64,000 nucleotides of DNA from Bradyrhizobium sp. 186 (GTDB lineage: Bacteria > Pseudomonadota > Alphaproteobacteria > Rhizobiales > Xanthobacteraceae): the NCBI RefSeq assembly GCF_023101685.1, contig NZ_CP082164.1, positions 8,804,001-8,868,000 of the forward strand, written 5' to 3'. Under the pieces are notes generated by a model. It saw nothing but the letters and a program-made list of their open reading frames with translations. It ran no database searches and was not told the DNA's origin. Positions 29,741 through 63,554 of this stretch are shown here, one piece after another. Made by a program: the position numbers and the translations under genes. Position 1 is the stretch's first letter, and the number at the start of each line of letters is the position of its first letter.

Positions 29741-29756
29741 TGTTTCCTAACAGACA
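29741..29756 (+). promoter_or_regulatory. NifA upstream activator sequence (TGT-N10-ACA)
   Basis: A perfect TGT-N10-ACA motif. Its centre lies about 150 bp upstream of the transcription start predicted from the -24/-12-like element at 29873, a usual distance for NifA with DNA looping. Chance occurrence is possible for a 6-bp pattern, but position and context support it. Confidence 0.6.
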
Positions 29757-29872
29757 CACCCTGTCGTTTCTCGAACTCGCTACCCGGGCGATATTGCCAT
29801 TCGCTTCTTACTACCCTTTTCCTGCTGCCGGGCGTTCTGCCGAATCATGATTGTGAGGTTCCATTAAGCAAC

Positions 29873-29888
29873 TGGCATAGTTCTTGAT
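29873..29888 (+). promoter_or_regulatory. Candidate sigma-54 -24/-12 promoter for kinase operon
   Basis: TGGCATA-GTTC-TTGAT matches the consensus TGGCACG-N4-TTGCW in the invariant GG and the spacing, but the -12 dinucleotide is GA instead of GC. The predicted transcript starts near 29898 and would give an 82-base leader to the ATG at 29980. The same -12 deviation occurs in the element upstream of the MATE gene. Confidence 0.45.
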
Positions 29889-29979
29889 CCTCCTCCGCGT
29901 GGAGACGAAATTGTCTGCGATCGAATGGGCTTTGTTACTCCCAGGGTCTCGAACTCGGTGCAACTAAAAAGGTTTAGCC

Positions 29980-30885
29980 ATGTGCGCAGCAGGAAACGGT
30001 GAGGCAACCGGACACCATGGCGAGCTTCTGCAGGGTATTTTCGAAGACGAGAATGGACAGCTACATCGAGGGTTAGTCTCACTTCCTTGCCGTCAGCTCA
30101 AATCAAGGGCGAAATTCAGCCCGAACAGGGCAGAAGACATCTCCATCACTCCAAGGCATTGTCAGAAGGCACAACGCGCTGCGAAGCTGGCACTCAAGAG
30201 GTTTGCTCCGACCAAGACTGGCGGACATCTGGCGATAGCCAGCAATATTCCGGTTGGTCGCGGCATGGGCTCATCCACTGCCGATGTCCTGGCCAGCATC
30301 CTAGCCGTTGTTGATTACCTGGAAGTGCAGCCATCGCCTGAAAGCATAATGCAAGTTGCTGTGAATGCCGAGACGGCATGCGATTCCACATTGTTTTCCC
30401 AGCAGGCAGTACTATTCGCACATCGCGAGGGGATCGTTATCGAGTCTTTCAGAAACTCAATTCCGCCAATAGATTACATCAGCGTCGATGTCACCCCCGA
30501 CCATCCAATTGATACACTCGCGTTCGAGCCGGCTCGGTATAGTTCAGCCGATATCGAAACGTTTCGACCGCTCCGAGGTCTCCTTCGTCGAGCGATTAAT
30601 ACCTGCGATGTTAGCTTGCTTGGTCGGGTTGCTACGGCAAGCGCTCGGATTAACGACAGGCATCTTAGAAAACCACGCCTGCACGATATCGAAGCAATAA
30701 GCGATCGTAATTGCGCAATCGGCATACAAGTTGCCCACAGCGGCACAGTTGTCGGCATAATGTTTGACCCAACAAACAAAACGACCGCCGAAAACATTGA
30801 GCAGGCAACACATGATCTGAGAAATTTGGGATTCGAGCCATCGATCCTCGTGCATGAAGACCAACTGGAGAGAACGAATGTCTAA
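29980..30885 (+). CDS. GHMP kinase, L-threonine kinase-like (PduX/BluE type)
   Basis: A 301-residue GHMP-superfamily small-molecule kinase. GHHGELLQG at residues 11-19 is the substrate-side signature of the PduX/BluE group, which phosphorylates L-threonine. PVGRGMGSSTADVLA at residues 91-105 is the ATP-binding GHMP loop. The start ATG 29980 has AAAAAGG seven bases upstream and leaves the short N-terminus usual in the family. It overlaps the next gene by 8 bp, so the two are translationally coupled. PduX and BluE supply O-phosphothreonine for cobalamin; here no cobalamin gene is nearby and the partner is a PLP enzyme. I infer that it activates threonine or a related hydroxy-amino acid for beta-replacement. 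The substrate is not proven. Confidence 0.8.
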   Translation: MCAAGNGEATGHHGELLQGIFEDENGQLHRGLVSLPCRQLKSRAKFSPNRAEDISITPRHCQKAQRAAKLALKRFAPTKTGGHLAIASNIPVGRGMGSSTADVLASILAVVDYLEVQPSPESIMQVAVNAETACDSTLFSQQAVLFAHREGIVIESFRNSIPPIDYISVDVTPDHPIDTLAFEPARYSSADIETFRPLRGLLRRAINTCDVSLLGRVATASARINDRHLRKPRLHDIEAISDRNCAIGIQVAHSGTVVGIMFDPTNKTTAENIEQATHDLRNLGFEPSILVHEDQLERTNV

Positions 30886-32479
30886 CCGAACTGTTATGCG
30901 CAAGCTGGAGGCTTTTGAACTCCCTCGAATCGTTAAGCTGAGTGACGGCTTGTTTGGCGCCAGCTTCTCTCTTATGAAGCTGCTGCCCGCCCGGTTCATG
31001 CTAGAGCAAGCTGTGGAGCACGGATTGTTGAAATCAGGAGGGACCATCTGCGAGTCTTCTTCCGGCACTTTCGGTCTTGCGTTGGCTATGCTCGCTGTAC
31101 AGTATGGCTATAAGCTTGTATTGGTGAGCGACTGGTCGCTTGATCGACAACTTCATAAGCGCCTCGTTGAGCTTGGCGCACGTGTGGAGATTGTCGATCG
31201 GCCCGCGAGCAGCGGAGGGCTTCAGCAAGCACGGTTGGATAGGCTAGCTGAATATCTTAAGGAAATACCCGATAGCTATTGGCCCTCGCAGTACTCCAAC
31301 AAAGACAACCCGCTAGCCTACGGGAAGTTTGCCGAAGCGCTAGTCGAACGGTTGGGGAAGATCGACGCCCTGGTTGGACCAGTTGGATCAGGGGGATCGA
31401 TGTGTGGTACAACCAAGTTCCTAAGGCATATTTTTCCCGCCCTGCATGCGATTGCCGTTGATGCTGCAAATTCAATATTGTTTGGACAACCTGCCGGCAA
31501 AAACGTGGTTCTTAGCGGACTAGGTGGCGCAATCGTACCTTACAATGTCGACCATAGACAGTTCGACGAGACTCACTGGCTAACACCCACAGAAATCTTT
31601 CAGGCCACTCACCACTTGCATCAGACCCATGGATTATTTATGGGGCCCACCAGCGGCGCAGCATATAGAGTTGCCGATTGGTGGTCACGCAAGAATCCAG
31701 GCAAGAACGTAGTCGCCATCTTTCCCGACGAGGGGCATCGTTACGTTGAAACAGTCTATGACGAGAACTGGCTCTCGTCCATTCCTGGGTGGCCTACGTC
31801 GATACGCCAAGAGCCAGTGACCGTTGAAACACCGGCCATGGAGTTAACCGGCTGGTCTTCCTATCCCTGGTGCAGGCGAACGCTACGCGAGGTACTCTCC
31901 GCCAAAGACCAGTCCCGCGGCTCCAACTCGGAGAGACAATGTAAGGGGACCTTATCTTTCGACGTAGGGCGCTGCGCGACGCTAAAAGCGTTACCTCATT
32001 TTGATAGCACGATCGTGGCGCATTTAGAGCTCAAGCCTGAACAAGAAGAGTTTGTAGAGCCGTTGGATGCGGTGTTTTCGAAACTGCGAAACAGTTCAAG
32101 TCCTCAACTAGAACATCCGTTTTCGGTTGTGGTCGGAAATGAAGTCGTTGCCTTTTTTATTTTGCGCGAAAAAGCTGCGCTGCCAGAGTGGGCGCCCCCA
32201 GATGTTATCACTTTGCACAATCTTCGCGTAGGCAGATCGTATCAAGGCCAAGGATACGGGAAACTAGCGACCAGACTAGCTGCTCAATGGATTTTGGAAA
32301 ATCGCCCGGGCATCAAGCGTCTAATGCTTGCGGTCAACGTTCGCAACGTAACGGCCATACAGCTATATGTAGAATCGGGGTTTCAAGGTACAGGTGCTGT
32401 TAACTGCGGTCCAGTCGGCCCTCAAAACATTCTGCATATACACTTGGAAGGCCAGATTCAGCGGCATGGATGTCTCTGA
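30878..32479 (+). CDS. PLP beta-replacement enzyme fused to GNAT acetyltransferase
   Basis: A 533-residue two-domain protein. Residues 1-320 form a fold-type II PLP domain of the cysteine synthase/SbnA kind: the likely Schiff-base Lys is K34 in SLMKLLPARFML, SSSGTFG (60-66) corresponds to the substrate-carboxylate loop and GPVGSGGSMCG (167-177) to the phosphate-binding Gly loop. Residues ~365-530 form a GNAT domain with LRVGRSYQGQGYGKLA (449-464), the acetyl-CoA pyrophosphate loop. Start ATG 30878 lies inside the kinase gene with GGAGAG upstream. The N-terminal PLP motifs are diverged from CysK. By context it would use the kinase product as acceptor and acetylate the result. The last few residues come from an adjoining IS3 remnant, so the native stop may be lost. 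Confidence 0.78.
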   Translation: MSNRTVMRKLEAFELPRIVKLSDGLFGASFSLMKLLPARFMLEQAVEHGLLKSGGTICESSSGTFGLALAMLAVQYGYKLVLVSDWSLDRQLHKRLVELGARVEIVDRPASSGGLQQARLDRLAEYLKEIPDSYWPSQYSNKDNPLAYGKFAEALVERLGKIDALVGPVGSGGSMCGTTKFLRHIFPALHAIAVDAANSILFGQPAGKNVVLSGLGGAIVPYNVDHRQFDETHWLTPTEIFQATHHLHQTHGLFMGPTSGAAYRVADWWSRKNPGKNVVAIFPDEGHRYVETVYDENWLSSIPGWPTSIRQEPVTVETPAMELTGWSSYPWCRRTLREVLSAKDQSRGSNSERQCKGTLSFDVGRCATLKALPHFDSTIVAHLELKPEQEEFVEPLDAVFSKLRNSSSPQLEHPFSVVVGNEVVAFFILREKAALPEWAPPDVITLHNLRVGRSYQGQGYGKLATRLAAQWILENRPGIKRLMLAVNVRNVTAIQLYVESGFQGTGAVNCGPVGPQNILHIHLEGQIQRHGCL

Positions 32480-32905
32480 GGCCAAGCGGTTAATGGCGCC
32501 GGAAGAGGAGAACGCGAAGCTGAAGAAGCTCCTGACGGAGCAGTGCCCTTCGCGAGCTTCCTTCGCGCATCTGCGCGCCGTCATGAGCCTGTCGGAACGC
32601 CTGTTCGACCGTTGGCGCGGATCGGAAGATGAGCCGCTATCACTCTAGTCGTCCTCCTGATGCGGAGCTGCGTGGCCGATTGCGCGATCTCGCCGGCGGC
32701 CGCGTTTCGGATACCGCCGGTGTTCGTCTTGCTGCGGCGGGAGGGCAAACCATCGGGAATCAACCGGATCTAACGGCTTTATCGGGAGCAAGGGGTCACC
32801 GTCCACAAGCCAACGAACCCGCCGCAAGGCCGTGGGGACCCGGGCCGCGATCGTGGTGGGAGCTCAGCCCAACGCCTGCTGGTCGCTGGATGTCGTCCAC
32901 GACCG
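32443..32905 (+). pseudogene. IS3-family remnant (OrfA end and OrfB start)
   Basis: The frame WKARFSGMDVSEAKRLMAPEEE, then NAKLKKLLTEQ is the C-terminus of an IS3 OrfA with its leucine-zipper-like helix. Further on, RYHSSRPPDAELRGRLRDLA and fragments of GINRI-LYREQGVTV and PNA-WSLDVVHD type are OrfB, split by frameshifts. The DDE core is absent. Its left junction overlaps the 3' end of the PLP-GNAT gene. Confidence 0.7.
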
Positions 32906-32910
32906 GTGAC

Positions 32911-33160
32911 GTAAGCGTGGCGCCGCGGCCCTTCAGATTGTTTGTGCGCAATCTTGGGAGCACCGCTAGAAGAGTCATCTTCGGCAAGGGTGCTCACAAT
33001 GGACGACCATTCGGACGATATAAGACGACCGTTGTCGCCGCGTATCGAAGTGTATGCTGGCGTAGGTCGAAAGCACTGGCGGGATGATTTGAAGGCACAG
33101 ATTGTCGCGGAAAGCCTCGAGCCAGGCGCGGTTGTAACGGATATCGCACGCCGCCATCCC
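32911..33160 (+). pseudogene. IS66 left end with tnpA fragment
   Basis: GTAAGCG at 32911 matches the IS66 outer terminus seen inverted at 58017-58023. The ATG at 32999 starts MDDHSDDIRRPLSPRIEVYA, and the frame continues through the helix-turn-helix start DLKAQIVAESLEPGAVVTDI before ending at about 33160. It is nearly identical to the longer tnpA at 57576-57935 on the opposite strand. Confidence 0.75.
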
Positions 33161-33162
33161 GG

Positions 33163-33860
33163 TCAAGGCCAGTCAGCTCTGAGAGGCGCAAGCCCGTCTG
33201 GGCCGCGACCAGCAGCAAGGTGTGATCGCGGCGACCAAGCCACGTCGTTCGATCGGGCGCGGCGAGAACCGCCTCGATCTCGGGGCGCGTCAGGAAGTGC
33301 ACCTGTCGCTTGTCATGGCGCTTGCTCGGTATGGCGAGCACGCGCTGGATCAGCGCACTGTGTGCCGGTTCCTCGAAGGACACGAACCTGAAGAAGGATC
33401 TGATGGCCGTCAGACGCAGGTTACGCGTCTTCGCGCTGGCGCCGCGCTTTACCTCGAGATCGGTGAGGAACGCGCCGATGAACGGTGCATCCAGATCGGC
33501 GAGCGTCAGGGCCGATGGGGACTTCCGCAGCCGCACCTGTGCGAACATGAACAGCAGCCGGAACGTGTCCCTGTAGGAGGCGATCGTGTTGCCGCTAACA
33601 TTGCGCTGGCGCATGAGGCGCTCGGTGAAGAAGCGCCCGATCAACGTGGCGACGTTGTAGGCGGGCTTCATGGCGTCACCTCCCATCGCCGATCGAGACG
33701 CCGCGCCGCTTCTTCCATCAACTCGGGGCAGGCCGAGAGATACCAGTAGGTATCGCGCACGCAGGCGTGGCCGAGGTAAGTGGAGAGTACTAGGAGTTGT
33801 TGCTCGACGTCCTTGCCTTCGCGATACCAGTCGAGCAGCGTCCGGATCCGCCACTCCATC
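33163..33860 (-). pseudogene. RIT tyrosine recombinase fragments (RitB end, RitC start)
   Basis: On the minus strand, 33860-33675 encodes the C-terminus of one tyrosine recombinase (LSTYLGHACVRDTYWYLSACP, with the catalytic Tyr context). Its stop overlaps the next ATG at 33671, which opens MKPAYNVATLIGRFFTERLM and runs through IASYRDTFRLLFMFAQVRLR to GLRLSELTGLDRD. The second gene is cut near 33165 by the IS66 end. The block matches 48114-48660 almost base for base, with a small indel near 33520. Confidence 0.8.
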
Positions 33861-33954
33861 CCCTCCCACCCACCCTCCGGGTGGAAAGGCGCCCGGCGCC
33901 ACCGATAGTTCCATGACCGCTCCTCCACCGCAAAGTTATCTTTTGCGTTCAGGG

Positions 33955-34185
33955 AGCCATCTCGCCCTTGCTCAGCAACCTGTATCTCAATGAGGTGGAC
34001 AAGACGCTGGAGCGGGCGCGGGAAATCACGCGAAATGGCAAGTACACCTACATCGAATATGCGAGGTTCGCTGACGATCTGGTGATCTTGATCGACGCCT
34101 ACAAACGTCATGACTGGCTGATCAGGGCTATGGACAAGCGGCTTCGGGAGGAGTTCGGCAAGCTGCAGGTTGAAATCGTGATGAA
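33955..34185 (+). pseudogene. Group II intron reverse transcriptase fragment
   Basis: The frame SNLYLNEVDKTLERAREIT, YTYIEYARFADDLVIL and KRLREEFGKLQVE is the catalytic palm of a group II intron RT (FADD at the active site). Only about 75 residues remain, fused to RIT debris on the left. It is a different RT subgroup from the one starting at 34944. Confidence 0.7.
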
Positions 34186-34194
34186 AAGAGTCGC

Positions 34195-37311: not shown

Positions 37312-37327
37312 TGTTGGATTTGCGACA
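37312..37327 (+). promoter_or_regulatory. NifA upstream activator sequence 1
   Basis: A perfect TGT-N10-ACA. It lies 19 bp, about two helical turns, from a second identical-type site, placing both on one DNA face. Centre about -97 relative to the start predicted from the -24/-12-like element at 37391. Confidence 0.7.
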
Positions 37328-37330: not shown

Positions 37331-37346
37331 TGTTGGACCCATGACA
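37331..37346 (+). promoter_or_regulatory. NifA upstream activator sequence 2
   Basis: A second perfect TGT-N10-ACA, centre about -78. The first four spacer-side bases (TGTTGGA) are shared with site 1, so the pair may have arisen by a short tandem duplication. Confidence 0.7.
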
Positions 37347-37390: not shown

Positions 37391-37406
37391 TGGCACGAAC
37401 CTTGAA
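37391..37406 (+). promoter_or_regulatory. Candidate sigma-54 -24/-12 promoter for MATE gene
   Basis: TGGCACG-AACC-TTGAA has a perfect -24 half and correct spacing; the -12 half reads TTGA instead of TTGC. It predicts a start near 37416 and a leader of about 245 bases containing two very short ORFs (37446 and 37510). The tandem activator sites upstream strengthen the call. Confidence 0.55.
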
Positions 37407-37660: not shown

Positions 37661-39082
37661 ATGAGTTTCATGAAGAAAGATAACCAGAACAATGCCGGTG
37701 TTGGCTTCGCGGCACGAACTGACGAGACCGAGGCACGAAATCAGTTTGCTGTCGAGCTCAGCGAAACCACGAAATTAGTATTGCCTATGGTGCTGACGCA
37801 GGTTGGTCAGATCGCGATGATGACGACTGACCTTGCCTTCATCGGGCGCATCGATGCTGAGGCGGTCGCCGCGGCAGCGCTTGCCAGCAGGGTCTATCTC
37901 ATTAGCTTCACCGTGAGCGTCGGGCTGCTAGGGGCGATCGTACCGTTAGCGGCGCAGGCTTTCGCAGCTGATAATCTAGTCGTGGTGCGGCGCGCGCTGC
38001 GCATGGGGCTTTGGGCAGCGCTGATGCTATCGTTCCCGATCGTGGCGCTTTCGCTGCGCGGAGAGCAAATACTGCTCCTTCTCGGTCAGGTGCCCGACAC
38101 GGCGCGGCTGGCCCAGCAATACTTATTCGGACTGGCCTGGGGCGTCGCCCCGGCACTATCGTTTCTGGCCATCCGCAGTTTCATGATCGCAGTGAATCGA
38201 CCGGAGCCGGTCTTATGTATCACACTTGCGGCGATTCCCCTGAACGCCTTACTGGCTTATCTGTTGATCTATGGAAAGCTCGGCCTGCCAAGGCTGGAGC
38301 TGTTCGGAGCTGGTCTTGCGACCACGCTCGTAAACTGTGCGACGTTCTTGGCCGCCTTGTGGTGCGCCCTGATGCATCGTCCTTTCCGTGACTATCAGGC
38401 GTTTGTGCATCTCTGGCGCTTCGATTGGCCCATGATGCGGCAGTTGATCGCCATCGGGACGCCAGTCTCAATCGCCTCCTTGATGAGTTCCGGGCTAACT
38501 TCGGCCGCTACGATGCTCGCGGGCATGATCAGCACCAGTGTACTCGCCGCGCATCAGATCGCCGTCCAGGTTGCCGGGACCTTGTTCACGATCCCTTTCG
38601 GCGTCAGTATGGCGGCGGCCGTGCGTGTCGGCCATGCGGTCGGTCGCAAGGACGGTCCGGGCGTTAAACGGGCAGGTCTGGTCGCGATGCTGTTCGGTAT
38701 CGTAATTACCGCGATACTAACGCTTGCAACAATTGCCGCTCGCTTTGAGATCGCGGAGGTGTTCTTGGGGGGATCTGTGTTCCGTAGCGATGCAACGGTC
38801 GGACTCGCTGCAAAGCTCGTTTTGGTCGGAGCCGGTTTCTTTATGACCGATGCCGTCCAGAGTATTGCGGTGGGCAGCCTGAGCGGACTGAAGGATACCC
38901 GGGTGCCGCTTCTGTTCGCCGGCATCGCTTATTGGCTGATCGGCTTTTCGCTCAGCTACGTGCTAAGTTTGAAGATAGGCCTTGGCGCCGTTGGTATCTG
39001 GATTGGGTTATCAATCGGGAAGGCTGTCTATGCCGGGCTTCTGGTCCTGCGCTTTGAGCTGCTGGCGAGCAGATTTGTTTGA
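37661..39082 (+). CDS. MATE-family efflux transporter (NorM-like)
   Basis: A 473-residue inner-membrane antiporter of the MATE family, which exports small organic cations and other amphipathic compounds in exchange for H+ or Na+. About twelve hydrophobic segments are visible in two homologous halves; early conserved features include LVLPMVLTQVGQIAMMTTDL near residue 38 and, at the second-half start, IGTPVSIASLMSSGL near residue 265. The start ATG 37661 (MSFMKKDNQ) has only a weak CGGG ribosome site, and ATG 37670 is an alternative. The gene is intact and downstream of two NifA-type sites, pointing to export during symbiotic nitrogen fixation. The exported compound is unknown; the product of the kinase/PLP-GNAT pair is a candidate by shared regulation. 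Confidence 0.88.
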   Translation: MSFMKKDNQNNAGVGFAARTDETEARNQFAVELSETTKLVLPMVLTQVGQIAMMTTDLAFIGRIDAEAVAAAALASRVYLISFTVSVGLLGAIVPLAAQAFAADNLVVVRRALRMGLWAALMLSFPIVALSLRGEQILLLLGQVPDTARLAQQYLFGLAWGVAPALSFLAIRSFMIAVNRPEPVLCITLAAIPLNALLAYLLIYGKLGLPRLELFGAGLATTLVNCATFLAALWCALMHRPFRDYQAFVHLWRFDWPMMRQLIAIGTPVSIASLMSSGLTSAATMLAGMISTSVLAAHQIAVQVAGTLFTIPFGVSMAAAVRVGHAVGRKDGPGVKRAGLVAMLFGIVITAILTLATIAARFEIAEVFLGGSVFRSDATVGLAAKLVLVGAGFFMTDAVQSIAVGSLSGLKDTRVPLLFAGIAYWLIGFSLSYVLSLKIGLGAVGIWIGLSIGKAVYAGLLVLRFELLASRFV

Positions 39083-39355
39083 GCCGATTATTCGCCCGCG
39101 GACAGCTCGTCGAGCTCTACGCGGCGCGTCCCTTCCAGGATGAGTTCGCTGGCCACGGCACGTGGCGATGCCAGACTTGGCCGAGGGTCTCTTCAGCTGG
39201 ATCCAAGATGCGATATGAAGCCCAACTGACCTCGATGAGAGGTGGTGATCTTCCGGCACTCACGTGCCTCGTCTAGCTCTCGAAGGTATGCGCGCCTTTG
39301 ATCGTCTGAAGCCGTATGCGCAACGATCTAGTTCTGCTTCAACAGGGGAAATCTC
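39083..39355. other. Intergenic after MATE gene
   Basis: About 270 bp; no terminator hairpin with a T tract was identified and no gene is supported. Confidence 0.4.
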
Positions 39356-39745
39356 ATGAGCAGACGCGATTCCGGAAACTGTTTATTTTCCGGCTTGATC
39401 CGGCGCTCACTGCTGCAGTCGATCGCTGACTTACTTTGCGTACCATTTGTGGCCGAAGCTACTAGCGCCTGGGCGCAGGAAAAGCTCGCGGGGGCTGGCG
39501 CAGTCGTCGCTTTCAGCTGGGGTGGCTCTCATGCCGGCGGCGTTCGGCAATATGTCTATGAGCTGCTTACGAAGTCGACGGGAAAAATAATCGTGAGTGT
39601 AACTGCAGGGCTCATTGCGCGAGCCATTCTGGGCTTTGCTCCACCTCTCGTCGTATCCGAATATGGGATAGATGAGATTGTTGAACTAGCCTACCGAGTG
39701 ACGAAGCAAGTGATGGACGAGCTTGCGAAAGAGTCCGCGGCTTGA
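39356..39745 (+). pseudogene. Truncated paralogue of the PotD-like solute-binding protein
   Basis: The ATG at 39356 follows AGGGGAAA. The first ~75 residues align with the protein at 11415-12554: RRSLLQSIADLLCVPFVAEA, TSAWAQEKLAGAG and SWGGSHAGGVRQYVYELLTK. After about residue 85 the sequence is unrelated (ending VTKQVMDELAKESAA). A signal peptide plus about 50 mature residues cannot bind ligand like the full protein. It is a remnant with a replaced tail, although the ORF is open and could be expressed. Confidence 0.75.
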
Positions 39746-40789: not shown

Positions 40790-40890
40790 CGAGCGGCTCA
40801 CGACTGCGCACCGAGCGAAGTTGGCCTATGTCTACGTGCGGCAGTCATCCATGAACCAGGTGCGTCAGCACCAGGAGAGCATCATCAAAA
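40764..40890 (+). pseudogene. Serine recombinase N-terminal fragment
   Basis: GTG 40764 opens VLISLNVADERLTTAHRAKL and then AYVYVRQSSMNQVRQHQES, containing the catalytic-Ser motif VRQSS. Homology ends near 40888, where the minus-strand branched-chain aminotransferase gene begins its last codons. The rest of a recombinase of this kind starts at 44230; about 75 residues between the two parts are missing. Confidence 0.7.
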
Positions 40891-41796
40891 GACAGGTGTA
40901 CGCCACGAACCGTGAGCATCATTCTTGCCCGTTACGATCGCCCCATAGGTGTCGATTAAGTGTTGTGTGACGGGCCCGGGTTGACCATTGCCAACAACCA
41001 TACGGTCTATGGATATCACTGGCGTGATTTCCGCAGCGGTGCCGCAATAAAATACTTCTTGGGCGAGGATCAGTTCCGATCGATCTACATCGCGCTCGAC
41101 GGTCTCCAGCCCAAGATACTCGCGGGCCAGTTCGATAACGGTCTGGCGCGTAATCGACTCCAATATGTCATTGGTCCCGCTTGGCGTGATCAGTTGACCA
41201 TTGCGAAGAATGAACACGCACATCGCGGATGCCTCTGCCAGCTTTCCCCTCGAATTAAGAAGGAAAGACTGATCGTACCCATCGCGTTGGGCCTGCATAA
41301 CGGCTAATCGGGAGTTATGATAATTTGCATTACATTTGATACGTGCAGGCATCACGTTGTCCGGCATACGCATCCAGGAACTAATCTGAACTGAAGCACC
41401 TTCGGCAATTTGTCTATCGGTCTCCCGTGGCAGCGCCGTGACTGCGGTTCCGATCGGGCCAGTGGCCTCCAACTCGCCAGATTGAATGAAAGCCATCATC
41501 CGGATATGTACGTTCGTACGAAATCCATTTGCACGACATAGTCGAACGAGCGCTTTGGTTAACTCCTCGCTGGACGGACCCTGATCGAAGCGCATCGCCT
41601 TTTGCGAGAAGGCATAGCGTTGCAGATGCTCTGCGACACGAAATAGGTATAGTTGCTGTGCTTCATCATTCCAATAGCCACGTATTCCCTCGAAGACGCC
41701 TAGACCATACTTTGCCACCGGTGCAAAAATATGCACCTTAGCGTCATCCCAATGGACAATTTTGCCGTTGAGATATGCAAACTCTACCATCGACAT
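40885..41796 (-). CDS. Branched-chain amino acid aminotransferase (IlvE-like, class IV)
   Basis: A 303-residue fold-type IV PLP aminotransferase that interconverts branched-chain amino acids and their 2-oxo acids with glutamate. ATG 41796 (MSMVEFAYLNG) has GGAG eight bases upstream; GTG 41805 and ATG 41790 are alternatives. YGLGVFEGIRGYW near residue 30 is the family opening, ARIKCNANYHNSRLAV holds Lys154, the PLP ligand, and GKLAEASAMCVFI holds the conserved Glu. The final residues (SWRTPVF) run into recombinase-derived DNA, so the native C-terminus is slightly altered. The gene is more AT-rich than the surrounding IS DNA. A second IlvE beyond housekeeping could serve a secondary pathway; this is inference. 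Confidence 0.85.
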   Translation of the reverse strand: MSMVEFAYLNGKIVHWDDAKVHIFAPVAKYGLGVFEGIRGYWNDEAQQLYLFRVAEHLQRYAFSQKAMRFDQGPSSEELTKALVRLCRANGFRTNVHIRMMAFIQSGELEATGPIGTAVTALPRETDRQIAEGASVQISSWMRMPDNVMPARIKCNANYHNSRLAVMQAQRDGYDQSFLLNSRGKLAEASAMCVFILRNGQLITPSGTNDILESITRQTVIELAREYLGLETVERDVDRSELILAQEVFYCGTAAEITPVISIDRMVVGNGQPGPVTQHLIDTYGAIVTGKNDAHGSWRTPVF

Positions 41797-41805
41797 GCAG
41801 TCCAC

Positions 41806-57522: not shown

Positions 57523-57575
57523 CGTGTCCGCCGGAGCGCCAAAAACACATCACTCAGCACGGCAAGCCCAGGCGT

Positions 57576-57935: not shown

Positions 57936-58016
57936 TGTGAGCACCCTTGCCGAAGATGACTCTTCTAGCGGTGCTCCCAAGACTGCGCACAAACAATCTG
58001 AAGGGCCTCGGCGCAA

Positions 58017-58023
58017 CGCTTAC
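58017..58023. repeat. IS66 outer terminus
   Basis: Reads GTAAGCG on the minus strand, the same outer sequence as at 32911. It marks the upstream end of the IS66 element; the opposite end is lost near 55796. Confidence 0.55.
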
Positions 58024-58034
58024 GCTTAAGCGCG

Positions 58035-58235: not shown

Positions 58236-58244
58236 AAGGTCAGT

Positions 58245-58460
58245 AGGATGCAATCGTATTGGCGCTGACGTTGCGCTGGCGCATCAGCCGCACTGTGAAA
58301 TAACCCTTGACGAGCCGGGCGAGGCTGCTACTCGGCGTCGTGGCTTGGCCTCCCAGCGACGGTCGAGACGACGGGCGGCCTCTTCCAGCAGCTCCGGACA
58401 CGCCGAGAGATACCAGTAGGTATCGCGTATGCAGGCATGACCGAGGTGGGTTTTCATGTG
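58245..58460 (-). pseudogene. RIT recombinase junction fragment, diverged third copy
   Basis: Minus strand gives HLGHACIRDTYWYLSACPEL then LEEAARRLDRRWE, the end of the second RIT recombinase, followed by GYFTVRLMRQRNVSANTIAS, the start of the third. It is homologous to but diverged from the blocks at 33163 and 48114, so it derives from another RIT element. Confidence 0.7.
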
Positions 58461-58525
58461 CCGAAGTGTCGTTGTTCGCGTTGTTATAGTCGTTCTAGAC
58501 GAATCTTCCACGAACGACTGAGACG

Positions 58526-59356
58526 TTATGATTGTTGGAGATCTCTCTCGAACAGGCGCCCCCAGCCGCCTATAACGTCGCGGCATTCGGCGAGTCTCAA
58601 GGCGTGCCAGCATATCGCCTGATTGGACGAAATTATCAATTTACCCGTCTGATGCTCTAGTTCGTTAATGATTGCGGCGGCACGCATTTGAGTGCAGGCA
58701 ATCACAACAGTATCAAGGTCAGCACTGTCACTCACCTGTCGCACGGCGTTCGATATGCTCACAGGTGAGATAAATGGTGCTTCATTCCTGACGAGGCCAG
58801 TTGCGTTGTGAAATGTAGCCGCGATCGGCACTTTCACTCCTGCAGTCTCGATGCCTCTAATCATCTTTTCAGCGATCTGGCGGGGATAAGGTGATACAAA
58901 ACCAACCCGAGCGGAGCCGAGCGCTCGCAGAGCAGAAAGGATCGCCGCGAAAGGGTCAGTCACACGTGCCTCCGGATGAACGTTACGGACACGACGCTCG
59001 AGCTCTTGGGGTCCGATCACCATAGCCGCGGAGGTGCATCCAAGCGCGACAACGTCCGATCGGCGCATGGTGTTGATTTGTTGGATAGCTTCATCGAGCC
59101 CGTCGAAAGTCTCCTCCAATAAGCCGATGCTCAGAGGCTTCTTACGCTGCTCGGGTGATGAGCCACGACCGATACGACTCTCATAAAGAGCAATACCAGG
59201 AATAGTCAGCATTGCTCGCGCCTCATGCGAGAGAGTCTGGTCGTTGCAAATCACAACCATTCCAATATGAGCTCGAGTACCTATGCCGCCGTCGACCTCA
59301 TACTGGATGTTGGACCAGATTTCAGTTGCCTGCTGCTTAACGTGTTCGACCGACAT
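58526..59356 (-). CDS. Asp/Glu racemase superfamily (maleate isomerase/EutA-like) protein, copy 2
   Basis: A 276-residue homologue of the protein at 10021-10845, with most residues conserved. The catalytic Cys contexts are VVALGCTSAAMVIG (Cys107) and VVIACTQMRAAAIINELE (Cys221). Start ATG 59356 with AGAGGATAAT directly upstream, the same leader as copy 1. In ectoine utilisation clusters EutA of this superfamily accompanies EutD and EutE; here DoeA/EutD-like and DoeB/EutE-like genes lie upstream on the same strand. About 300 bp separate it from the MmgE/PrpD fragment. A role in the same catabolism is inferred. Confidence 0.85.
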   Translation of the reverse strand: MSVEHVKQQATEIWSNIQYEVDGGIGTRAHIGMVVICNDQTLSHEARAMLTIPGIALYESRIGRGSSPEQRKKPLSIGLLEETFDGLDEAIQQINTMRRSDVVALGCTSAAMVIGPQELERRVRNVHPEARVTDPFAAILSALRALGSARVGFVSPYPRQIAEKMIRGIETAGVKVPIAATFHNATGLVRNEAPFISPVSISNAVRQVSDSADLDTVVIACTQMRAAAIINELEHQTGKLIISSNQAICWHALRLAECRDVIGGWGRLFERDLQQS

Positions 59357-59662
59357 ATTATCCTCTCGACATCAGTTCTTAGGTCCACTCGGCGCTAGAT
59401 TATGAAGCGGCTCCTTACAGCGCCGCGCCCAGCGCTGGACTGTTTCGAGCGCGACTATACCAACTCTTATCTGTTTCATAACTGTTCAATGGAGCCTACT
59501 CCTAAGGTGTTGGACAGCCTGCCGTGTCAGCCTTCTGTTGCGATTTGCTGCTTATAATCTGCGAGAAGTCGCTGGCTGGTAGCATTGACGTACTCTGCCA
59601 TCTATTAGTGTCGCGCTCGGATTGCCACCCGCGCCGTCCCCATAGCCTAGCAAATAAGACAG
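59357..59662. other. Upstream region of racemase copy 2
   Basis: About 305 bp without a gene. A minus-strand GG-N10-GC spacing occurs near 59620-59634 but its halves fit poorly, so no promoter is called. The break in the MmgE/PrpD gene lies at the right end of this stretch. Confidence 0.4.
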
Positions 59663-59977
59663 TCAAATATTTACCTTGGTAGCCAAGGAGGTAGCAAGAA
59701 GAGGGGTACCAATCACGTAGCAGCCGCTTGCCTTAGCATCGTATGCGGCTACTATTTTGTTGCAAAAACAAGGATCCGCAACAATGCAATCGATTGTATC
59801 GAGCAAACGCAGCTTTGCCTTGTAAAGAAAGTCGCTGGGCATATCTGCATACCTTAAATCTGCAAGAAAGCGCACTAACTTTCCAGAATGTACGTGAGTG
59901 GGAACACGAGGAAATAGAATGTGCTCAAACTTCGCTCTGCCTGCGATCGCGGAAGTGCTTCTTGTGTTTGCCGACAT
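59663..59977 (-). pseudogene. MmgE/PrpD family, N-terminal fragment
   Basis: ATG 59977 opens MSANTRSTSAIAGRAKFEHI; LVRFLADLRYADMPSDFLYK and AKLRLLDTIDCIVAD match the conserved N-terminal helix of MmgE/PrpD proteins (2-methylcitrate dehydratase and related hydratases/dehydratases). VAAYDAKASGCYVIGTPLLA is the following block. After about 104 residues of an expected ~450 the gene ends. It sits 137 bp downstream of the threonine-synthase-like gene, so it was probably the fourth gene of that operon. Confidence 0.65.
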
Positions 59978-60114
59978 TTTCCCACGTGATGGCCAAAGTA
60001 TCGGGCCGATACGCTTACTCTTTCTCGAATTGTAGTCCCGCCTCATGCGCATCAGATCAGCTTTTTCAAATGCCGAGCGACCGAAGATTGTTTCGCACTT
60101 TGGGCGGACCCCCG

Positions 60115-61284
60115 CTAGCTATACACTTCGGTGGGCCATTGCGAGTTTTCATACTCCTTATAGCCGTGTGAAGTGCCTAGGCATACAATCACTTTAGAAT
60201 GCGCTTCGTCATCGGCAACTGTCAGCGATCTGGCTGCCGACAGGGTCGCGGCACTAGAAAGCTCAAGATACAGGCCATTCCTGGCGAGGATGCCCTGATC
60301 GTCTAGGGCCTCGCGGTCTGTTACGGCTAGCGCAGTGCCTGCCGAAATTCGAAGGGCCTTAATACTCTGGTAGGTGACGGTCGAGCCGCCGATCGAGACC
60401 ATCGCACTTTGCCCTTCATGAATACTGCGGTAATCACCGTTTTCCAGGCATTTTCTAATCCGCGGGAATGGTTCCACAGCATGAACGCGAGGCAGCCTTT
60501 CGAGGAGACCTGCATCACGAAGGTCAGCGAATCCTTGAGCAATGCCCCAAATAAGATCCCCCCTTGAAGTGGGGACGAGAACATCTGTTGCAGGATTCGC
60601 TTGCATCTGAACGAACAGCTCGAATGCAATAGCACGATAACCGTCGACTCCGATCGGATTGCTCCCCACGGGAGGCATTAAATAGTTGGTTGCTGGATAC
60701 CATTCGCCTGAACGGGACTTAGCAGCCAGAAGGTTCCATCGCTCGTCAGACGTGGACGTGCATAGGAGCGTGGCTCCGTGCATTTCCACTGCACGCCGCC
60801 AATTCGGACTCATATCCTGGGTAGTAACCACAACACAGGACAGTCCTGCATGACCTGCGTAAGCCGCCAGTGCTGCTCCCGCATTTCCGCTGGAGGCAGC
60901 AGCAACGGTTTCCACTCCAAGTTCAGTGGCACGTTGCACCAGCATTGCAGCCATTCTGTCTTTGTGTGATCCAGTTGGATTCGCGGCTTCGTTTTTAACA
61001 AAAAACTTCGACACGCCTAGAGCTTCTGCGAATACCGGAAATTCTACGAGCGGCGTACATCCTTCTCCAAGCAATGGCGAGCTCGTGTAAACAAGCCAAT
61101 CTTGGATTGACCTCGCTGTCAGAGAATTAGGCCAACTCTGATAATCGACTTTTACGCTTGCCGGCCAGCCACTATTTAGACAAGCTGGACAGCCTTCTAC
61201 GTAATCATGCTCTTCGAAGGGCCAGATGCGGTGACATCGCACGCATCGCATTTGCAGCGCCGCCGGGTTGCGTATCCAAGCCAT
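60115..61284 (-). CDS. Threonine-synthase-like PLP enzyme
   Basis: A 389-residue fold-type II PLP enzyme. A rubredoxin-like zinc ribbon uses Cys14, Cys17, Cys32 and Cys35 (CVRC and CPAC). NPTGSHKDRMAAML carries the Schiff-base Lys108, and AAASSGNAGAALAAYAG is the substrate-binding loop. The start is ATG 61284 (MAWIRNPAALQ) with AGGAAGAGAG upstream, 25 bp after the previous stop; a longer frame would overlap that gene by about 300 bp. Relatives catalyse beta/gamma elimination or replacement on O-phospho- or hydroxy-amino acids (threonine synthase, cysteate synthase, diaminopropionate lyase-like). EutB of ectoine clusters is a related PLP enzyme without the zinc ribbon. The exact reaction is unknown. 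Confidence 0.82.
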   Translation of the reverse strand: MAWIRNPAALQMRCVRCHRIWPFEEHDYVEGCPACLNSGWPASVKVDYQSWPNSLTARSIQDWLVYTSSPLLGEGCTPLVEFPVFAEALGVSKFFVKNEAANPTGSHKDRMAAMLVQRATELGVETVAAASSGNAGAALAAYAGHAGLSCVVVTTQDMSPNWRRAVEMHGATLLCTSTSDERWNLLAAKSRSGEWYPATNYLMPPVGSNPIGVDGYRAIAFELFVQMQANPATDVLVPTSRGDLIWGIAQGFADLRDAGLLERLPRVHAVEPFPRIRKCLENGDYRSIHEGQSAMVSIGGSTVTYQSIKALRISAGTALAVTDREALDDQGILARNGLYLELSSAATLSAARSLTVADDEAHSKVIVCLGTSHGYKEYENSQWPTEVYS

Positions 61285-61309
61285 CAAACTCTCTTCCTGC
61301 CTCAGCGCG

Positions 61310-62332
61310 TCATACGACTGTCGGGAGCATGAGAGTGTATAGACAGTCTCCCCGAGCGGTAAGGGACGGAAAACGACGACACTCGACACGACCAGACTTG
61401 CGGAACCGCAACTCCATCGGCTCCCTGGTTGGATCGTCGATGTAGTACAGTCGTCCAGCCAAGTCCCCCTCGAAAACTTCCTGCCCAACCAAGGCAGCCG
61501 GCTCAAAAATGCCGTCGGCGTCGGCATAAATAGAGGAGTCTCGGCCCGCGTAATCCATAAACTCTGTTCCGGCCCTCTCTTCTCCGGCCAGGTTAGGCGC
61601 AATACCAATATGCTTTAGGACGCGCGTGATGCCATGCTCGGCCAGTTGAACGCCGGCCGGGGACACTGTGGCGCCGCCACCAAGCTCGGTCGTGATAGTA
61701 GGCACACCGAGAGATCTGGCTACTGCGTTTAGCGTCGTCGCACCACCACCACCACCACCACCTTGGCTGCTGTCGACAAAGCTGATCGGCGCACCGAAAA
61801 CGCGAAGAAGCTCGAGCAATTCTTGATGCTCTTCGCTCGTACGTCCGGGCCGGATGATCGCGCACCGAACGTAGTCGAGCGACAGCCCACCCGAATGCAG
61901 GTCGATAGCGATATCAGACATCGGCAACAGCACCGTGCTGATGTAGTGTGCGATCATCTCCGTCGGCGTCCCAGTGGCACTACCCGGAAACGAGCGATTG
62001 AGGTTTCCTGCATCCACGGGCGATACGCGCCTGGCTGCCTTCACCGCAGGAAAGTTCGCTGATGGCAGGACAATTACGCGCCCTGAGATCTCGCGGGGTG
62101 TAAGACGGCGAGCGAGGTTCATTAGCGCAATCTGGCCCTCATATTCGTCTCCATGGTTGCCCGCGATAAGCAACGCCGTCGGACCGATCGCGTTCTTGAT
62201 GCAGACGATGGGGATCTGAATGCAACCGTAGGCAGACCTATCAGTGGAATGAGGCAATCGAAGGTAGTCAACAAACTTTCCATCTCGTTCAAAGTCGAGC
62301 GGAGTCCAGATGCGAGACTGACTTGCGATCAT
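61310..62332 (-). CDS. DoeB/EutE-like N-acetyl-diaminobutyrate deacetylase
   Basis: A 340-residue zinc hydrolase of the succinylglutamate desuccinylase/aspartoacylase family. GNHGDEYEG (His60, Glu63) and DLHSGG (His146) are the three metal ligands. Family members such as DoeB/EutE remove the acetyl group of N-acetyl-2,4-diaminobutyrate after ectoine ring opening. Start ATG 62332 lies 7 bp after the M24 gene stop. A run of seven Gly at residues 191-197 is encoded by a CAC-type trinucleotide repeat (61747-61768), unusual for the family. Gene context gives an operon: M24 hydrolase, this gene, PLP enzyme. The substrate may differ from the ectoine intermediate. Confidence 0.83.
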   Translation of the reverse strand: MIASQSRIWTPLDFERDGKFVDYLRLPHSTDRSAYGCIQIPIVCIKNAIGPTALLIAGNHGDEYEGQIALMNLARRLTPREISGRVIVLPSANFPAVKAARRVSPVDAGNLNRSFPGSATGTPTEMIAHYISTVLLPMSDIAIDLHSGGLSLDYVRCAIIRPGRTSEEHQELLELLRVFGAPISFVDSSQGGGGGGGATTLNAVARSLGVPTITTELGGGATVSPAGVQLAEHGITRVLKHIGIAPNLAGEERAGTEFMDYAGRDSSIYADADGIFEPAALVGQEVFEGDLAGRLYYIDDPTREPMELRFRKSGRVECRRFPSLTARGDCLYTLMLPTVV

Positions 62333-62339
62333 GCCCCCC

Positions 62340-63554
62340 TCACGCCGATTTCTTGGGCCACGCAGGGACTATAGGTAGCTCGTCGGGAGACAGCTCACTG
62401 ATGAACTCTACGCCATTCTCGCGAACGTAGATGACTTCTTCAAACTGGAAAATTGCGCCATTCTTCTCAAGCTTCGGTTCGACATGGAAAATCATGCCAG
62501 GCAAAATCAGAGTGTCGTCGCTGGCCGACACCGAGGGAGGCTCAGTGATATCAAGCCCCCCACCATGTCCTATACGTGATACATGTCCGTAGAGTTCACC
62601 TAGATCTGCGTCTTTCCAAAGTCGCAGAAAGTTGTTGTAGACGTCACGGCAGCGCAGGCCAGGTTTGAAACTTTTTGCAACTTCGATCGTCAACGAACGC
62701 GTCCGCTTGTACGTTTCAATTTCCCAATTTTGCGGACCTCCACATCGTGCAATTCGGTTCCGATCGGCAGGATAGCCGCCGTATGTTGCATTGTTGTCAG
62801 TCCAAATATAGTGCCCCTCTCTAAGCCTGCGCTCAGAAGGACGGATGCCATAAACAAAGTCACCGTCGCTAAAGAGCATAGGAATATTGTCAGCGCTTTC
62901 TGCGCCATTTAAGTGAATCTGGGCCTGCAACATCCGTGACAGCTCAAACTCGGTGATGCCGATATAGGCCTGCGCAATCACCTGGTCGAACGCATCATTG
63001 ACGATGCTCATAGCGGTTCTTTTCATTGCAGCTTCGAATGGAGTCTTTATCATTCGAACACGGAAAAGCAGATCGACTGCGGTCTGTACCACGCCATCGG
63101 ACGCCAATTCTTTTAGCCGATCGAGCATGCGGAGTGAGCCGCGCCCGAGCATCTCTTGCCCGTAGTCAATAGCAATTCGTTGACGACCCGACGCCGCGCC
63201 GCTACGTATCCGTTCAGCTACTGCGTCTACCGCCTCGGAAATGTAGCCGTTATAAGAAATAACCGAGTATCGCCGCGGAGCACTCTCCATGATCTTTACT
63301 TCTGACGGGCAACCCACGACATGAAGCTGATCTTGGGTAATTACAACGAAGCTAGGCCTTGATTTGTAGGCGACCGAGAGCGTTCGATAGTCTGTAAAAT
63401 ACTGTATGTTCTTCAGATCCGACAGAACAACAACGTCTATGTGAGCCCGCTCCATCTCTTTCCGCACGCGGCTCAACCGCGCGTCAAGTTCTTCAAGTGG
63501 GACTTGCGGGGACGGCGGCAACGGACGCACTTTTAGAGTCCTATCCGGATTCAC
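62340..63554 (-). CDS. M24 metallohydrolase, ectoine hydrolase (DoeA/EutD)-like
   Basis: A 404-residue creatinase/prolidase-fold protein. The N-terminal domain precedes a pita-bread catalytic domain with ligands in IWTDNNATYGGYPADRNR (two Asp), RIGHGGGLDITEPPS (His), IFHVEPKLE (Glu) and FQFEEVIYV (Glu), so the metal site is complete. DoeA/EutD opens the ectoine ring by hydrolysis; other M24 members are Xaa-Pro peptidases or creatinase. Pairing with a DoeB-like deacylase 7 bp downstream favours the ectoine-hydrolase group or an analogue acting on another cyclic amidine or amide. It is first in the minus-strand operon; no NifA-type site was found upstream. Confidence 0.83.
   Translation of the reverse strand: MNPDRTLKVRPLPPSPQVPLEELDARLSRVRKEMERAHIDVVVLSDLKNIQYFTDYRTLSVAYKSRPSFVVITQDQLHVVGCPSEVKIMESAPRRYSVISYNGYISEAVDAVAERIRSGAASGRQRIAIDYGQEMLGRGSLRMLDRLKELASDGVVQTAVDLLFRVRMIKTPFEAAMKRTAMSIVNDAFDQVIAQAYIGITEFELSRMLQAQIHLNGAESADNIPMLFSDGDFVYGIRPSERRLREGHYIWTDNNATYGGYPADRNRIARCGGPQNWEIETYKRTRSLTIEVAKSFKPGLRCRDVYNNFLRLWKDADLGELYGHVSRIGHGGGLDITEPPSVSASDDTLILPGMIFHVEPKLEKNGAIFQFEEVIYVRENGVEFISELSPDELPIVPAWPKKSA

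Follow-up and report, generated by a model that had tools for sequence, protein, structure and literature searches.

Genes of the locus

The window analysed here, a stretch of 64,000 nucleotides from Bradyrhizobium sp. 186, belongs to a genome of the Bradyrhizobium type in which nodA and an intact nifA are approximately 300 kb away, and its features are collected in Table 1. Family scans of the window proteins bear out the genes named in a preliminary description of this DNA, which are stop-free open reading frames of the expected families; the operon termed "fragmented" there has a contiguous core of M24 hydrolase, deacylase and PLP enzyme. The families on its minus-strand list were also recovered, but four of the genes (11415-12692, 3543-5090, 1586-2797 and 13566-14777) sit to the left of the interval to which the list was assigned. 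No tie to the cassette was established for the ThDP enzyme (3543-5090) or for either class-V aminotransferase (1586-2797, 13566-14777). A branched-chain aminotransferase (40885-41805) scored above the IlvE cut-off, had no link to the system in the loci compared, and was set aside. Just to the right of the window (locus L005) are an ABC transporter, a class-III aminotransferase and an SSADH-like ALDH.

Table 1. Features of the window, by unit, with strand and supporting remarks.
Feature	Position	Strand	Remark
NifA-type UAS TGT-N10-ACA, kinase operon	29741..29756	+	132 nt upstream of -24/-12-like element
-24/-12-like sigma54 element TGGCATAGTTCTTGA, kinase operon	29873..29887	+	3 mismatches
GHMP kinase	29980..30885	+	PduX/threonine-kinase-like by relatives' names; PVGRGMGSS motif present
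SbnA-like PLP beta-replacement enzyme fused to GNAT N-acetyltransferase	30854..32479	+	TIGR03945, SbnA structures
NifA-type UAS 1, MATE gene	37312..37327	+	
NifA-type UAS 2, MATE gene	37331..37346	+	
-24/-12 element TGGCACGAACCTTGA, MATE gene	37391..37405	+	one mismatch
MATE exporter	37661..39082	+	66-72% identity to MATE genes near GNAT+PLP in G043, G148, G055
Remnants of solute-binding protein and class-III aminotransferase	39347..39739	+	
EutA/AMDase/Asp-Glu-racemase-like protein, variant-2 catabolic gene	58526..59356	-	
Threonine-synthase-like PLP enzyme, catabolic operon	60115..61284	-	
DoeB-like N-acetyl-diamino-acid deacylase	61310..62332	-	TIGR02994; 6twl/6twm 244 bits
M24 hydrolase, DoeA/Xaa-Pro dipeptidase-like	62340..63554	-	metal-ligand motifs present
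ThDP enzyme, acetolactate-synthase-like	3543..5090	-	NF005760 above cut-off
Second EutA-like copy	10021..10899	-	225/276 residues identical to 58526-59356
PotD-like solute-binding protein	11415..12692	-	62% to right-flank one
Class-V aminotransferase, BhcA-like	13566..14777	-	near-copy of 1586-2797

The GHMP kinase is proposed to be a threonine (or serine) O-kinase, a designation taken solely from the names of its relatives. The adjoining PLP/GNAT fusion scores 221 bits against the SbnA equivalog TIGR03945, short of the curated cut-off of 349.95; the closest solved relative of its PLP domain is SbnA (5d84/5d87), and the Dap-forming CmnB is also among the solved matches. The two domains are fused in some relatives and separate genes in others, and in the order at large the fusion was found in 3 of 297 genomes (E 1e-55), a count that includes the window's own genome and, as in each of the order-level surveys (3/297), is too small for statistics. 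Broken-up synthesis copies occur in the records of N. galegae VafX2, Mesorhizobium 131-3-5 and Sinorhizobium 8-89.

On the degradative side, the deacylase reaches 280 bits against the DoeB equivalog TIGR02994 (cut-off 402.7) and has DoeB among its closest solved relatives. The M24 enzyme reaches 46 bits against the DoeA equivalog TIGR02993 (cut-off 613) and scores higher, again under cut-off, with the PepQ dipeptidase model (72 bits) and with a second model for ectoine hydrolase (58 bits). The EutA-like protein at 58526-59356 reaches 120 bits against TIGR02990 (cut-off 318). In relatives the degradation genes are accompanied by a solute-binding protein or ABC importer, GntR regulators, a porin and central-carbon enzymes; the importer of the kinase variant in the window itself is uncertain because the nearby ABC system is of the polyamine type. 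The MATE and EutA-like genes, placed together with the kinase as one system in the preliminary description, are real and fit a nested second variant composed of a GNAT, a different PLP enzyme, a MATE exporter and EutA. An MFS exporter takes the place of the MATE protein in AR07 and INR15.

NifA/sigma54-type promoters

Both plus-strand units do carry the TGT-N10-ACA and -24/-12-like elements ascribed to them. Within the window such motifs occur at chance level (11 TGT-N10-ACA matches against 7.4 expected, and 32 -24/-12-like matches with at most two mismatches against 29.7 expected), and raw matches were therefore rejected as sole proof of NifA control. The promoters rise above chance because they are kept at orthologues with a fitting spacing between UAS and -24/-12 element. 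The element of the kinase operon reads TGGCACGNNTTTTGA at four orthologous loci (L010, L039, L090, L091), that of the MATE gene reads TGGCACGAGCCTTGA at L106 and L108, and at L039, L042, L090 and L091 the two parts of the pair are 100-125 nt apart, comparable to the kinase pair of the window.

With nifH as positive control, NifA/sigma54-type pairs were found at 11 of 22 synthesis or export genes, including both window units, as against 0 of 35 catabolic genes (p 3.8e-6); the genes were hand-chosen from the fetched loci, and the kinase2, PLP2, kinase3 and nifH rows stand outside the 22. Among the seven kinase2, PLP2 and kinase3 rows so left out, one has a pair (PLP2 in L097). As background, when no more than one mismatch is allowed in the -24/-12 element, such a pair occurs in 12 of 864 upstream regions of open reading frames in the fetched loci; five of the 12 precede a kinase or MATE gene of the system. 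No pair was found at the synthesis genes of AR07 and INR15, nor at those of L008, L009, L010, L036, L037, L040, L052 and both genes of L108; at L036 one is present farther upstream, and L010, L037 and the L108 MATE gene have the -24/-12 element without a UAS. The Paraburkholderia phymatum kinase likewise has a -24/-12-like element and no exact UAS.

Linkage and co-occurrence in other genomes

The kinase and the SbnA-like PLP/GNAT genes recur on six plasmids, from Cupriavidus taiwanensis, P. phymatum, P. sabiae, Neorhizobium galegae and two Mesorhizobium, with the synthesis and catabolic orthologues 3.1-35.5 kb apart and identities to the window proteins of 60-64% (kinase), 67-75% (PLP domain), 54-62% (M24), 56-64% (deacylase) and 52-60% (catabolic PLP). 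These plasmids are the top six M24 matches (among the best 25 of 398 matching records), all six carry the kinase/PLP pair, and all fall within the top ten matches to the fusion or PLP domain (among the best 40 of 536 matching records).

In Bradyrhizobium the GNAT occurs in 10 of 252 genomes, nine of which also carry the M24 or deacylase gene (Fisher p 7e-13; 1.3e-11 without the window's own genome), where the identity and E-value cuts were set after the lists had been seen, kinship is uncorrected, and neither the 13 genomes whose deacylases are 42-47% identical nor the 13 with PLP-only matches of 39-51% were counted as positive. The pairs share a contig in seven of the nine cases, and the six on contigs longer than 3 Mb are 2-79 kb apart by hand-entered, rounded distances. 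NodA is present in all 10 GNAT-positive genomes and in each of the 13 that have a catabolic gene, compared with 132 of the 252 overall, so that among the Bradyrhizobium surveyed the system is confined to nodulators. The co-occurrence anticipated for the two gene sets is thereby found among orthologues on the plasmids as well as in the Bradyrhizobium genomes, and, as in a rhizopine system, a catabolic set that includes a binding protein is linked to the synthesis genes of producers. There are also catabolic genes without a GNAT match (G017, G027, G170 and G200), the 29-kb stretch examined in Bosea F3-2 has no synthesis gene, and AR07 and INR15 hold both gene sets on a plasmid without nodA.

The type of synthesis PLP enzyme co-varies with that of the deacylase (Mantel r 0.53, p 0.002) and of the M24 enzyme (r 0.51, p 0.009); GNAT against M24 (p 0.06) and PLP against catabolic PLP (p 0.21) were not significant. 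These tests used only the best HSP per gene, so that the broken-up genes of N. galegae entered them incompletely.

Nodule expression in P. phymatum

Nodule RNA-seq has been published for the orthologues in P. phymatum (PMC8305402 Table 1), with log2 changes in nifA relative to wild-type nodules of -8.24 for the kinase (Bphy_7478), -6.85 for the fusion (Bphy_7479), -6.59 for M24 (Bphy_7500), -3.19 for the catabolic PLP enzyme, -5.1 to -6.1 for the ABC genes, -2.2 for GntR and -7.40 for nifH; as nifA-mutant nodules are Fix-, the drop may be an indirect effect. The deacylase (RS37095, deduced to be Bphy_7499) and a 2-oxo-acid dehydrogenase E1 (RS37055) are absent from that table. With promoters that include those of the window, these orthologue data argue for synthesis genes active in nodules under NifA and sigma54, as had been predicted. 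The gene tags were not found in the main text of further P. phymatum papers searched. The known genes nrgA/nrgBC, considered as a possible identity of the NifA-type genes here, are named only as genes of unknown function in the text consulted. Diaminopropionate ammonia-lyase, named in the literature on diaminopropionate, was not matched to any of the genes here.

Discussion

Rhizopines are the textbook case in which bacteroids feed their free-living kin. Given that the two gene sets co-occur, that orthologues depend on NifA and that promoters are conserved, the window probably holds a rhizopine-like cassette for making and exporting, and for importing and degrading, a compound of non-inositol chemistry, much as the preliminary description had suggested. 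The substrates, the compound, its export and the benefit to kin are what we infer from these observations. In the nodule, with NifA and sigma54 driving expression, the kinase would phosphorylate a hydroxy-amino acid, most likely L-threonine and possibly serine; the SbnA-like PLP domain may then exchange the phosphate for an amine, and the resulting 2,3-diamino acid or amino-acid adduct would be N-acetylated by the fused GNAT. Release would be through the MATE protein (in the window) or an MFS exporter (in AR07 and INR15), and uptake through ABC transport in free-living cells with the linked operon, where the DoeA-like M24 enzyme could hydrolyse the compound, the DoeB-like deacylase remove the acetyl group, and the threonine-synthase-like PLP enzyme perform a final cleavage to a 2-oxo acid. 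More broadly, we lean slightly towards a modular family of non-inositol rhizopines in two proteobacterial classes, with NifA-driven N-acetyl diamino-acid products derived from serine or threonine in at least two chemistries (kinase with PLP1/GNAT; GNAT with a CBS-like PLP enzyme and MATE), each paired with a co-varying, product-induced M24/deacylase module.

It is conceivable, if unlikely, that the same pathway makes a product aimed at the host plant or at rivals (a non-protein amino acid, a metallophore, or a toxin of the aspergillomarasmine or staphyloferrin-precursor type), which the linked operon recycles or detoxifies. The kinship of the PLP domain with the siderophore enzyme SbnA and with CmnB, the MATE/MFS-type exporters, and a related kinase-PLP-ATP-grasp-argH cluster in Azospirillum and nodulating Bradyrhizobium all fit such a product; however, the importer, GntR, porin and central-carbon enzymes beside the degradation genes look nutritional, and the gene tables of the three loci concerned name no siderophore receptor.

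We hold it still less probable that the catabolic operon serves to break down ectoine or an N-acetyl-diamino acid from plants and lies near the kinase operon since both ride on symbiosis islands or plasmids. The enzymes resemble EutA, EutE/DoeB and EhuB, and DoeB-like proteins at 42-47% occur in 13 further Bradyrhizobium genomes, 12 of them NodA-positive, yet the scores fall under the ectoine-family cut-offs. Chance sharing of an island would also have to account for a catabolic gene in nine of ten GNAT-positive genomes, when just 13 genomes have one against 132 that are NodA-positive, and for gaps of 3-36 kb that recur on plasmids of both alpha and beta classes.

That the cassette makes and turns over an ectoine-like compatible solute for bacteroids seems very doubtful. 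According to the available text of PMC5979394, rpoN nodules of P. phymatum contain less ectoine (-1.4) and 5-hydroxyectoine (-1.2). G055 has EctB, and in P. phymatum EctB depends on NifA. Against this, a search that took in the window's own genome and, for P. phymatum, pBPHY02 found ectoine synthase missing in 14 of 15 genomes or records, an exporter belongs to the cluster, and the P. phymatum nifA mutant is described in section 2.6 of PMC8305402, as available, as more and not less resistant to osmotic stress. A housekeeping role, with the kinase/PLP pair in threonine, cysteine or cobalamin synthesis and the PLP and M24 enzymes in general amino-acid turnover, follows the authors' reading of Bphy_7479 as cysteine and Bphy_7498 as threonine synthesis (PMC8305402) and the PduX-like names among kinase relatives, but is hardly credible for NifA-type genes with a fused acetyltransferase, the GNAT of which occurs in just 10 of 252 Bradyrhizobium genomes and the fusion in 3 of 297 in the order.

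If the rhizopine-like reading is true, this would be a second, chemically unrelated system of its kind across alpha- and beta-rhizobia and a new route for feeding kin, an idea that would become testable in Bradyrhizobium, Mesorhizobium and Paraburkholderia. It would account for a strongly NifA-dependent block of nodule genes so far read as cysteine, threonine and transport functions, and inoculant engineering could gain a private nutrient or sensor of a new kind. P. phymatum STM815, with its published nifA nodule data, is a ready test strain.

Comparison with known systems

The kinase shares the GHMP family with the L-threonine kinase PduX, and some relatives are named PduX or threonine kinase; unlike PduX, it stands in an operon with PLP/GNAT, and no cobalamin or propanediol genes are named in the plasmid maps around its orthologues. 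Ectoine degradation (DoeA/DoeB/EutA-E with EhuABCD) offers counterparts to the M24 enzyme, the deacylase and the EutA-like protein, along with an EhuB-named importer in relatives, whereas here all are under equivalog cut-offs, a threonine-synthase-like PLP enzyme is added, and the set is tied to a NifA-type synthesis operon in genomes or records that, in 14 of 15 cases, are missing ectoine synthase. SbnA, of the pathway to the staphyloferrin B precursor 2,3-diaminopropionate, is of the same beta-replacement family; in contrast to it the window protein scores under the SbnA cut-off, carries a fused GNAT and has a kinase as partner, and no SbnB-like protein is among the ten window proteins scanned.

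The known rhizopines, as given in the available text of PMC10107442, are inositol amines of a select few Sinorhizobium/Rhizobium strains. In the mos/moc system for L-3-O-methyl-scyllo-inosamine, as described there, NifA controls the synthesis genes, the catabolic genes include a binding protein and a MocR-type regulator and are regulated on their own, and a strain typically has both sets; all of this resembles the present system. The inositol enzymes of mos/moc (MosB, inositol or ononitol dehydrogenases, MocA/C/DEF) were not among the ten main window proteins scanned. Where mos/moc has MosB/MosDEF for synthesis and MocA/C/DEF for catabolism, the window has a kinase with an SbnA-like PLP/GNAT fusion and an M24 enzyme, DoeB-like deacylase and PLP enzyme, respectively, and unlike mos/moc its system is found in beta- as well as alpha-rhizobia.

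Gene content and genomic setting

The catabolic operon, which the preliminary description took to be fragmented, is contiguous for its M24, deacylase and PLP genes (table below). The left part of the window holds one more solute-binding protein and one more EutA-like copy, along with a ThDP enzyme and two near-identical class-V aminotransferases, which differ at 2 of 403 residues and are, judged by sequence, a recent duplication. Beyond the window, the right flank encodes a polyamine-type ABC transporter, a class-III aminotransferase and an SSADH-like dehydrogenase.

Features of the window and their coordinates
Feature	Position	Strand	Remark
Class-V aminotransferase, copy 1	1586-2797		
Class-V aminotransferase, copy 2	13566-14777		
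GHMP kinase	29980-30885	+	overlaps PLP/GNAT fusion
Fusion, SbnA-like PLP enzyme + GNAT acetyltransferase	30854-32479	+	
MATE exporter	37661-39082	+	
M24 hydrolase, DoeB-like deacylase, threonine-synthase-like PLP enzyme	63554 down to 60115	-	single contiguous run
EutA-like protein	58526-59356	-	after the M24-deacylase-PLP run

Among solved structures, the closest to the PLP domain of the fusion is SbnA, the closest to the catabolic PLP enzyme are threonine synthases, and the closest to M24 are proline and Xaa-Pro dipeptidases. For the deacylase, a structural-genomics succinylglutamate desuccinylase/aspartoacylase entry ranks first, followed by N-acetyl-2,4-diaminobutyrate deacetylase (6twm/6twl); a close solved relative of the kinase was looked for and none was found. 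Key motifs of the window enzymes were detected by a pattern check, the residues counted as key being those that we presumed to be so. Since the window proteins score well under the ectoine and SbnA equivalog cut-offs, they are relatives of these families, not members.

The window (G000:C1:8804001-8868000 in its own 10.77-Mb genome, G000) lies ~300 kb away from nodA (8.518 Mb) and an intact nifA (8.504 Mb, 736 bits), and a full-length nifH, above the TIGR01287 cut-off, is found at 1.053 Mb. Insertion-sequence ORFs, judged by eye, are abundant in the window. A degenerate second nif set occupies 8.96-9.02 Mb of the same contig (loci L007, L002 and L060), with a nifA-like frame interrupted by TAG, a nifH fragment and, recognized by eye, a nifB-like reading split over two frames.

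Linkage of the two gene sets in other rhizobia

A description of this system was not found in the literature searched, which excluded most subscription journals, all preprints and supplements. The pairing of gene sets put forward in the preliminary description does recur elsewhere. In a protein search against 72,556 plasmids, the window M24 matched at 54-62% identity on its best six plasmids (N. galegae, C. taiwanensis, P. sabiae, P. phymatum, and Mesorhizobium AR07 and INR15; best 25 of 398 matches listed), the seventh among the matches listed being Bosea F3-2 at 46.5%. The fusion or its PLP part matched at 58-69% in its best ten rows (best 40 of 536 matches listed); among the matches listed, all six M24 plasmids fall within these ten, and their kinase/PLP and catabolic sets lie 3.1-35.5 kb apart. 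C. taiwanensis keeps the M24-deacylase-PLP order of the window, with the kinase 6.1 kb off, and AR07 carries the whole system in ~14.5 kb: kinase, PLP, MFS, separate GNAT and MmgE/PrpD, followed by PLP, deacylase, ABC, an EhuB-named binding protein, GntR and M24.

Four of the ten fusion/PLP rows have no close M24. These are two Azospirillum records, the one inspected carrying a different cluster with ATP-grasp and argH; Mesorhizobium 131-3-5, where the kinase is broken up; and L-2-11, whose M24 has diverged (36%) and whose kinase has a PLP paralogue on its upstream side. Of the 12 records searched, 7 also carry NodA, which was not found on those of L-2-11, RRI128, AR07, INR15 and Bosea F3-2. 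A kinase(34%)-PLP(43-45%)-ATP-grasp-argH operon, different from that of the window and resembling Azospirillum ramasamyi locus L043, was also seen at about 8.6-13.5 kb of L103, L104 and L105 in three NodA-positive Bradyrhizobium genomes (G171, G056 and G249).

The genus was surveyed in one draw of 252 Bradyrhizobium genomes with five queries: the fusion matched in 19 (E 1e-60), the GNAT domain in 10 (E 1e-30), M24 in 10 (E 1e-60), the deacylase in 21 (E 1e-75; at least 50% identity in 8) and NodA in 132. Nine genomes are common to the 10 with GNAT and the 13 with M24 or a deacylase of at least 50%, for which Fisher tests, run without kinship correction and with identity and E-value cuts chosen after the lists were inspected, gave p 7e-13 (1.3e-11 without the window's genome). 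The two sets share a contig in seven of the nine and lie on different contigs in the drafts G067 and G096; in G148, the remaining GNAT genome, a partial M24-like stretch lies at the end of a contig. Every genome with GNAT (10; p 0.0013), with a catabolic gene (13; p 1.7e-4) or with a fusion match (19; p 2.4e-6) is also NodA-positive. In the order at large the system is rare, each query matching 3 of 297 genomes, own genome counted. DoeB-like deacylases at 42-47% identity occur in 13 further Bradyrhizobium genomes, 12 of them NodA-positive, hinting at possible further variants of the system.

Context maps distinguish two variants, the first comprising kinase and PLP1, with or without fused GNAT, together with window-type M24, deacylase and catabolic PLP, and the second comprising GNAT, a CBS/SbnA-like PLP and often MATE, together with diverged M24 and deacylase, EutA and an EhuB-like binding protein. 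Variant 2 is compact in genome G043 (~16 kb; MATE 72% to the window's), and its GNAT and PLP are present in S. meliloti M270 pSymA and RRI128; the window is variant 1 plus pieces of variant 2 (MATE, EutA). Seven Mantel tests of co-variation gave r 0.53 (p 0.002) for PLP against deacylase, 0.51 (p 0.009) for PLP against M24, 0.91 (p 0.0002) for M24 against deacylase, 0.58 (p 0.015) for GNAT against catabolic PLP, 0.29 (p 0.04) for GNAT against deacylase, 0.21 (p 0.06) for GNAT against M24 and 0.19 (p 0.21) for PLP against catabolic PLP.

Possible chemistry of the product

Synthesis would proceed by phosphorylation, beta-replacement and acetylation, and catabolism by hydrolysis, deacetylation and PLP cleavage, such that the enzymes of the two halves appear complementary. 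A product of this kind might, for instance, have a mass close to that of N-acetyl-diaminobutyrate (160.085) or of its dehydrated ring (142.074). A C4 (threonine) skeleton is suggested because genes for a 2-oxo-acid dehydrogenase E1, ilvB and MmgE/PrpD adjoin the catabolic operon of P. phymatum. E1 and ilvB do likewise in P. sabiae, and E1 relatives occur in the Bradyrhizobium genomes G108 and G192. This E1 is annotated mdeB (TIGR03186 above cut-off), which we take to be tied to 2-oxobutyrate. In a published comparison of bean nodules formed by a P. phymatum nifA mutant and by the wild type (PMC8305402), flow-injection MS, done without a separation step, gave lower levels of 'phosphohomoserine', '2,4-diaminobutanoate' and threonine for the mutant, and O-phosphothreonine and 2,3-diaminobutanoate have formulae identical to the first two, respectively; this is a hint only, because numerous other amino acids fell as well.

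Ordinary ectoine synthesis is unlikely, as ectoine synthase was not found in 14 of the 15 genomes or records searched. EctB-type transaminases do lie near these systems at L095 16295-17548 (genome G055), at L113 (a B. guangxiense plasmid) and on the P. phymatum plasmid pBPHY02 (Bphy_7266/7268), but ectoine synthase was not found in G055 or pBPHY02. Strong NifA dependence is recorded for P. phymatum ectB and a GNAT in PMC8305402.

NifA-type promoters and nodule expression

A single promoter rule was applied identically to both sides: in a 600-nt region, an exact TGT-N10-ACA had to precede by 45-200 nt a -24/-12 element with no more than 3 mismatches. NifA-type pairs precede 11 of 22 synthesis/export genes, a set that includes loci L008, L009, L040 and L044 without any trace of such a promoter, versus none of the 35 genes that are catabolic or lie nearby (p 3.8e-6); at no more than one mismatch the counts are 9 and 0. 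The nifH positive control scored perfectly. The same loci comprise 864 ORF upstream regions, of which 17 score when 3 mismatches are allowed and 12 when one is allowed; the Markov background was 0.0064 and 0.0002 per 600 nt, respectively.

The NifA dependence anticipated in the preliminary description is observed in the P. phymatum orthologues, to which we matched the RefSeq tags of PMC8305402. In that work, the log2 changes (nifA versus wild type), which may be indirect since the mutant is Fix-, were -8.24 for the kinase (BPHY_RS36990) and -6.85 for the fusion (BPHY_RS39040), with nifH at -7.40, and -6.59 for M24 (BPHY_RS37100), -3.19 for the catabolic PLP (RS37090), -6.13/-5.83/-5.14 for the ABC genes (RS37105/37110/37115), -6.33 for the binding protein (RS37070), -5.97 for MmgE/PrpD (RS37080) and -2.18 for GntR (RS37125). 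Twelve of the 13 tags Bphy_7493-7505 were down; the deacylase RS37095 (deduced Bphy_7499) and the E1 gene RS37055 are not among the genes listed as down in its Table 1. The authors assign 7479 to cysteine synthesis, 7498 to threonine synthesis and 7501-7504 to a Lys/Arg/Orn transporter. Within Bphy_7633-7652 of pBPHY02, Table 1 of the same source lists as NifA-dependent a D-Ala-D-Ala ligase, matE and an epimerase/SDR, as well as an ABC transporter accompanied by M81 peptidase and a class-III aminotransferase, which are possibly another make/export and import/degrade pair.

No compatible NifA promoter was found ahead of the 35 catabolic or neighbouring genes or the catabolic genes of P. phymatum, and thus the NifA dependence of the latter would be compatible with a NifA-dependent product acting as inducer. 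The restriction of such promoters to the synthesis side parallels the inositol rhizopine system, in which, according to PMC10107442, mos is under NifA control and moc is rhizopine-induced.
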